Below, one piece after another: positions 41,667-42,286 of a stretch of 64,000 bases of DNA; within the stretch, counting starts at the first letter, position 1; each line of letters begins with the position of its first letter. Under the pieces are notes generated by a model. That model did not search any database and was not told the origin of the DNA. It saw only the letters and a list, made by a program, of their open reading frames with translations. Both the position numbers and the translations under genes were made by a program. Source of the DNA: Deuterostichococcus epilithicus. Lineage: Eukaryota; Chlorophyta; Trebouxiophyceae; Prasiolales; Stichococcaceae. The DNA lies in assembly GCA_033439295.1 (NCBI GenBank), contig JAVTLE010000015.1:1364001-1428000 (forward strand), written 5' to 3'.

Positions 41667-41671
41667 TTACA
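41667..41671 (-). terminator. TGTAA poly(A) signal of the DUF3253 gene
   Basis: TGTAA on the minus strand about 20 nt past the SECIS-like hairpin, so the hairpin would lie inside the mature 3' UTR. Confidence 0.5.
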
Positions 41672-41689: not shown

Positions 41690-41760
41690 GACGCCAGGTT
41701 TCTTCCGGGCAGCGCAGACCGCCGAAGCGGCTTGAAGCACCGCCATCATACCCTGGCACC
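41690..41760 (-). promoter_or_regulatory. Putative SECIS element (form 2) in the 3' UTR
   Basis: Lies 16-86 nt after the DUF3253 stop. Stem I pairs GGTGCCAGGGT (41760-41750) with AACCTGGCGTC (41700-41690), 10 of 11 pairs counting G-U. The quartet uses ATGA (41749-41746) against a GA-containing AAGA/GGAA (41705-41701). Stem II (TGGCGGTGC against GCGCTGCCC) holds about eight pairs with one bulge. Twelve nt after ATGA come the two apical A residues (41733-41732), then a mini-hairpin GCCGC-TTCG-GCGGT (41731-41718), as in form-2 SECIS. Read by eye, not scored. Confidence 0.72.
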
Positions 41761-41775
41761 GCCGCCGCTACATTC

Positions 41776-42286
41776 TCACCCACCTGCTCCGCCGGAGGCT
41801 TCACCTTCTTCCGAGGTGGCTTTGAGACGCAGGCGGATCGGACCCTTGAAGCTTGTCGGGTCTACAGGCTTTCCCTTCTGGGTGATGTCGATCTCGCCCC
41901 GCTGCGCCAGCTCCCGCGCTGCGGCCCACGTCGCCTCCATGAACGATCTCCAGTCTGCGCAGATGCGCACAGGATGATCAGATCGTGTGCGGTCATGTCC
42001 TTGCACATGCTGCTCGTGAGTGCCTTTGGATGGTCGCTGCACGGGGGAGGAGGGCACCTGGAACCTGCAGGCTGCGCGGCACCTCGGAAGGTCAGCAGCT
42101 GGCGCCTGGCCGCCGTGCACCCAAAATGTTCCTTATTTGCTGCTGCAGAACCTGATTTGTCACTGGTTCTGGCACGCTAGTGGGGCTCTGCTGCCGCTGC
42201 TGCGGGGCGCGCCGCTGTGTGTCCTGCCGGCGACGCTTTGGTGCTGCCTCACCGGCAGCCATGCTCGACGCACGTTTGCGAGGCAT
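41776..42286 (-). CDS. DUF3253 protein with in-frame TGA: candidate selenoprotein
   Basis: Two exons, 42286-42058 and 41954-41776, joined in phase 1 across a 103-bp intron. Exon 1 starts MPRKRASSMAAGEAAPKRRR, a basic nuclear-type leader, then VTNQVLQQQIRNILGARRPG, ASC, a TGA at 42092-42094, then PSEVPRSLQVP. Exon 2 gives DWRSFMEATWAAARELAQRG, EIDITQKGKPVDPTSFKG, PIRLRLKA and stops at TGA 41776-41778. DUF3253 proteins read ...CPSEVAR..., then DWR.LM...R, then I.VTQ.G.PVDP...GPIRLR. Homology continues straight through the TGA, which sits exactly at the family's Cys before Pro-Ser-Glu. No GT-AG intron can remove it: the only nearby GT and AG are 13 bp apart. With the SECIS-like element in the 3' UTR, selenocysteine is the simplest reading. 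Otherwise it is a 64-residue fragment with a broken tail. The family's function is unknown. Confidence 0.8.

Follow-up and report, generated by a model that had tools for sequence, protein, structure and literature searches.

A candidate DUF3253 selenoprotein of a green alga with an in-frame TGA at the conserved CPSE cysteine

Our analysis of a 64,000-nucleotide stretch of the Deuterostichococcus epilithicus genome (hereafter the window) indicates that a DUF3253 gene on its minus strand very probably represents a new selenoprotein family with cysteine homologues, as judged from sequence comparison. The codon, its frame, the splice sites, a SECIS-like element and the decoding machinery are all present in the sequence, and from these we infer that the UGA at 42094-42092 would be decoded as selenocysteine (Sec) by the eukaryotic pathway of tRNA-Sec, SepSecS and eEFSec.

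The DUF3253 gene and its reading frame

When the coordinates were re-derived, a two-exon gene was obtained at 42286-41776 with the following features, all on the minus strand.

42286, minus strand: start codon ATG, gene start
42058..42286, minus strand: exon 1, encoding the basic N-terminus MPRKR..., helix 1 and GASC-TGA-PSEVPRSLQVP
42092..42094, minus strand: in-frame TGA, the proposed selenocysteine codon, at the CPSE cysteine of DUF3253 and right behind a Cys codon
41955..42057, minus strand: intron of 103 nt, GT-AG, placed by the restored homology ...VP/DWRSFM
41776..41954, minus strand: exon 2, encoding DWRSFM...GPIRLRL..., with the terminator TGA at 41778-41776
41693..41757, minus strand: SECIS-like element in the 3' UTR, with an AUGA core, 12-nt spacing to the apical AA, an apical mini-stem and a 3' GA
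41667..41671, minus strand: TGTAA, a poly(A)-signal-like pentamer 104 nt past the stop, which we take to be the green-algal poly(A) signal

The product has 135 residues, of which the TGA is residue 65, and would read ...RRPGAS-Cys-Sec-PSEVPRSL.... With Cys put at the TGA, the Pfam model of DUF3253 (PF11625) matched residues 46-120 and so spans residue 65 (E=1.7e-24, 86.3 bits against a gathering cut-off of 22.1), and exon 2 by itself scored 59.4 bits, showing that the homology is intact on both sides of the TGA. The coordinates and reading of the gene in the original prediction were borne out, with a splice placed by homology and a domain match that crosses the TGA. Past the TGA all 70 codons are open (70/70), the splice sites are undamaged and the GPIRLRL motif is retained. 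The NCBIfam search gave no match for the protein, and the Pfam scan found no N-terminal DUF2256 domain (PF10013). In the 46.8-Mb genome the gene is the sole significant DUF3253 match, with one other at E=0.445.

The SECIS-like element and the selenocysteine machinery

The hairpin at 41757-41693, which would direct Sec decoding, starts 18 nt past the stop and 231 nt of mRNA past the UGA, on the correct strand and no more than 85 nt into the 3' UTR, just outside the interval covered by the original prediction. The published SECIS rule of NTGA-AA-GA requires 10-13 nt to the AA and 15-39 nt to the GA, with energies below -12.6 for the whole element and below -3.7 for the upper stem (PMC2375036). 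The hairpin satisfies this spacing and energy rule: AUGA and the apical AA are 12 nt apart, the GA follows after another 26 nt, the minimum free energy is -32.4 kcal/mol and the upper stem energy -22.2. Its 3 unpaired bases before the AA might lead to rejection by a published filter that allows at most two consecutive unpaired bases. It also has a single bulged C between helix II and the core. Long apical mini-stems are described for almost all O. tauri SECIS elements and for a number of those of Chlamydomonas (PMC2375036). Compared with shuffled sequences the fold is stable (z=-3.0, 2/200 shuffles as good), and a longer stretch of 106 nt folds less remarkably (z=-1.86, 10/200 shuffles as good).

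The Rfam model SECIS_1 aligned to the hairpin over its whole length (1-64) with 19.8 bits, which falls short of the gathering score of 35; the E-value was 1.1 for 4227 families and 1,601 bases, which by division corresponds to about 2.6e-4 for SECIS_1 alone. The Rfam scan of the whole window (E<=10) lists no SECIS_1 match, as E-values rise with the amount of sequence searched. In a genome-wide SECIS_1 search at E<=10, with 133 of 412 candidates scored, the DUF3253 hairpin was not among the matches listed, and the only one listed was that behind a SelT/SelW/SelH-family gene (below), with 21.3 bits. The 19.8 bits are sub-threshold, but this SelT-type SECIS, in the same genome and with the same architecture, itself reaches only 21.3. 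The two elements have a plan in common, with 12-nt spacing, 8 helix II pairs, a mini-stem of 5 bp, and 5 unpaired nt on the 5' side and 2 on the 3' side; helix II of the SelT-type element has one mismatch. A SECIS scanner, written after the candidate hairpin was seen, placed it at the top of its 19 rows, which stand for 14 distinct sites because some loci overlap, when run on 421 kb of strand sequence, with a score of -35.8 against -26.7 for the next site, which was the SelT-type SECIS. In simulated sequence, scores reaching -35.8 occurred 8 times per 24 Mb under a third-order model of the sampled DNA and 45 times per 24 Mb under a second-order model of the GC-rich parts, which gives a chance of about 1.7e-4 to 9e-4 per 500 nt for so good a hairpin.

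The original prediction had referred to the Sec machinery of green algae such as Chlamydomonas, and genes for this machinery are present in the genome studied here, together with two further genes that have a TGA at a Sec-type position.

G000:C15:818479-818564, minus strand: tRNA-Sec gene (L001), 77.4 bits against a cut-off of 47, anticodon tca
G000:C3, about 819.6-820.6 kb, plus strand: SelT/SelW/SelH-family gene with a CGSU motif (L005) and a SECIS downstream
G000:C4, about 1319-1320 kb, minus strand: GPX with a TGA at the catalytic column, as judged by eye (L039), reading NIASA-TGA-PLQ-NSNY

Exons of SepSecS and eEFSec were found, the latter with matches in 0/14 control genomes, as were selD-like exons, which exon by exon lie below the curated cut-off and whose region contains no SECIS_1 match. 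The exons of L005 read ISFCGSUSY..., and the SelT/SelW/SelH model, whose cut-off is 34.2, gave the spliced peptide 65 bits; the gene is presumably SelT. The unspliced L005 fragment matched no Pfam family, and we think that PF10262 found nothing genome-wide at E<=1 because the exons of this gene are split. The GPX reached 35.9 bits against a cut-off of 27 with Cys put at the TGA, and has Pro-Leu-Gln behind the TGA where Gly-x-Thr is usual. Its flank gave no Rfam SECIS match, and a SECIS-like hairpin candidate about 124 nt past its stop was obtained under relaxed rules only; another GPX in the genome reads Cys (NVASQCGYT). For PF13911 there was one weak match in the genome (E=0.033), and TIGR01438 gave 15 matches with 0 above the cut-off and no GCUG end in the three loci L020, L021 and L023. 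Judged by this gene content, the organism should make selenoproteins. As a separate observation, a PsaA/PsaB match at G000:C21:139151-142539 is in two pieces with 2 TAA and 1 TAG inside, and is probably a plastid gene interrupted by an intron; psaA/psaB on this contig mark the host as a photosynthetic eukaryote.

The conserved column, the homologues and alternative explanations of the TGA

The claim that the TGA falls exactly at the CPSE cysteine agrees well with the alignment of 120 homologues (the top entries listed when 8000 candidates were scored and 4452 proteins reached E<=0.001), in which this column is Cys in 118/120, Ser in 1 and Thr in 1. The residues behind it are Pro and Ser in 120/120 and Glu in 116/120. 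A third homologue search added the best 120 of 291 and brought the set to 238 proteins, where a regular expression read Cys in 233, Ser in 1 and Thr in 1, the 3 missed ones reading CPG or CPT. The site could be read in the same manner in 41 of 80 bacterial loci, with 37 Cys, 2 Gly, 1 Glu and 1 Ser; one of the two Gly readings (L119) is an artefact of the regular expression, and none of the 41 readable loci has a TGA at the site.

Sixteen homologues (P0002, P0121-P0134 and P0137) look eukaryotic, a label which is our reading from their sequences. The comparison with relatives for Cys or TGA at this column, which had been proposed as a check, gave Cys in 16/16 of them, and in 14/16 a Cys-Cys pair stands where the window has Cys-TGA. 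The motif PSE[VI]PR, which the window has too, occurs in 16/16 of these proteins and in 0/222 of the others in the set, and most of them have long, basic, low-complexity N-termini like that of the window protein. Outside the 16, the sole protein of the 238 in which the regular expression found such a pair is P0188 (DUF2256-DUF3253), with Cys-Cys before PSD. By plain alignment score the top three of the 238 for the window protein lie outside the eukaryote-looking set, and the mean alignment score to the window is 182.6 for this set versus 154.6. In a tree built from the window protein and 55 of the 238 homologues (56 rows), which has too few columns for firm placement, the window protein can form one clade with the 16, though this is weakly supported (75/0; present in 71% of bootstrap trees), and the branch of the window protein is long. 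The lack of Sec-containing relatives among predicted proteins means little, because gene callers would mostly truncate such proteins. In viral contigs 93 stretches fit a pattern, none of them a relative.

The window protein agrees with 23 of the 25 columns that are at least 85% conserved in 54 rows, with the TGA counted as Cys. An Arg found in 54/54 homologues is replaced by Trp at product residue 86 (TGG, 41928-41926, minus strand), which falls in helix 3, presumably the recognition helix, and one further conserved position differs. From the sequence, these two mismatches would fit mild divergence or early decay, and decay would leave the SECIS unexplained. This bears on the first alternative to be considered, namely that a Cys-type DUF3253 gene has recently suffered a nonsense mutation, leaving a unitary pseudogene or a null allele confined to the strain, and that the hairpin downstream of it arose by chance. 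The invariant Arg that is Trp here and the long branch of the window agree with such a history, and the gene, as the sole significant DUF3253 match in the genome, is without a functional copy for comparison. However, the hairpin bears the hallmarks of a SECIS and is properly placed and oriented in the 3' UTR, where the chance of such an element is of the order of 1e-4 to 1e-3; the frame past the TGA, the splice sites and the C-terminal motif are all preserved; and the stop hits the one column where a Sec/Cys exchange makes sense. We therefore regard a nonsense mutation as improbable. An error of sequencing or assembly, with TGC or TGT as the true codon, needs a single-base change and is less probable still, as a SECIS-like element in the same transcript would not be expected.

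The original prediction also held that no legal intron can remove the TGA. This is correct in so far as no GT/GC-AG intron skipping the TGA keeps CPSE, because the first AG past the TGA sits in the Glu codon of PSE, but 121 frame-keeping GT/GC-AG introns of at least 30 nt that would remove the TGA are theoretically possible. Alternative splicing of this kind is nevertheless a negligible explanation, since each of these introns deletes the almost invariant CPSE. Overall, the selenoprotein interpretation is supported by the SECIS-like hairpin, the Sec machinery, a CxxU gene with its own SECIS in the same genome, and the Cys homologues.

Predicted fold, a possible redox role and comparison with known systems

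In an AF2 model of homologue P0124 the domain blocks have pLDDT values of 83-95, and their order (helix, strand, helix, helix and two wing strands) resembles that of the structure 2ns0 and of many winged helices. As read from this model, the predicted fold of DUF3253 is a winged helix. The window protein would then be small, a winged helix preceded by a basic tail, and its Cys-Sec pair would lie at the junction between a short strand and the beginning of helix 2 in the helix-turn-helix. Only tentatively, we suggest that the two vicinal residues could be linked in a selenenylsulfide, and that their redox state might switch a winged helix that binds nucleic acids. Oxidants would close the pair at the junction of strand 1 and helix 2 and thereby re-set the recognition helix, so that in the algal nucleus selenium might make the binding of DNA or RNA depend on redox state. 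If this is true, the Cys-type DUF3253 proteins would be thiol switches. The gene neighbourhood in bacteria (54 ORFs from 21 loci) did not indicate a pathway. The ORFs scanned were 54 of the 126 listed near matches in 24 of the 80 bacterial loci, and among the families listed (25 of 64) no Pfam family occurred in more than 3/54; the commonest were FAD_binding_3, EAL and SbmA/BacA with ABC domains (3/54 each), and photolyase occurred once.

Most known selenoproteins are enzymes with a thioredoxin fold or other oxidoreductases. A DUF3253 selenoprotein, if confirmed, would add a winged-helix-fold family to them. It would also mark the CPSE cysteine as a chemically active residue of a large family (at least 4452 proteins) with no assigned function, and, as Sec is generally taken to persist at sites whose reactivity is important, the function of DUF3253 would become directly testable. 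The statement that no DUF3253 selenoprotein has been described stands within the open-licence literature, where a text search across 5.39 million papers did not find the word DUF3253. A survey of algae covers 137 species and 42 selenoprotein families, and its main text, in the portion available, names no DUF (PMC7539508). Three hypothetical Ostreococcus selenoproteins have been reported (PMC2375036), and the protein may have been described previously under another name, either among these or in the 'Hypo' family of the algal survey (PMC7539508).

In the members compared here of DUF3253, a family that includes PDB 2ns0 (RHA04536 from Rhodococcus), the position of the TGA is occupied by Cys, with Ser, Thr, Gly and Glu as rare exceptions, and many bacterial members carry an N-terminal DUF2256 domain, which the window protein is without. 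The eukaryote-looking homologues are closer in character, having in common with the window PSE[VI]PR, the preceding Cys (14/16) and, if long enough, basic low-complexity N-termini, and they differ in having Cys instead of the TGA. With the known algal selenoproteins the candidate would share the TGA for Sec, a SECIS in the 3' UTR and Cys homologues (PMC7539508). Among those covered in the available text of that survey, a DNA-related Sec protein is nearest in theme to the window protein, and the 'Hypo' family, with 80% of its members having Sec, is unlike DUF3253 (PMC7539508). The fold is similar to that of the Zalpha Z-DNA-binding winged helices of ADAR1 and other proteins, at 17-19% identity. 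By eye, the contact Tyr of Zalpha does not appear to be conserved in DUF3253. The regulators SqrR, BigR and AbfR are winged helices with a reactive Cys. These redox-responsive proteins are among the weaker fold matches only, and the likeness to DUF3253 is one of fold and of the proposed logic, in which a reactive residue would control a nucleic-acid-binding winged helix.
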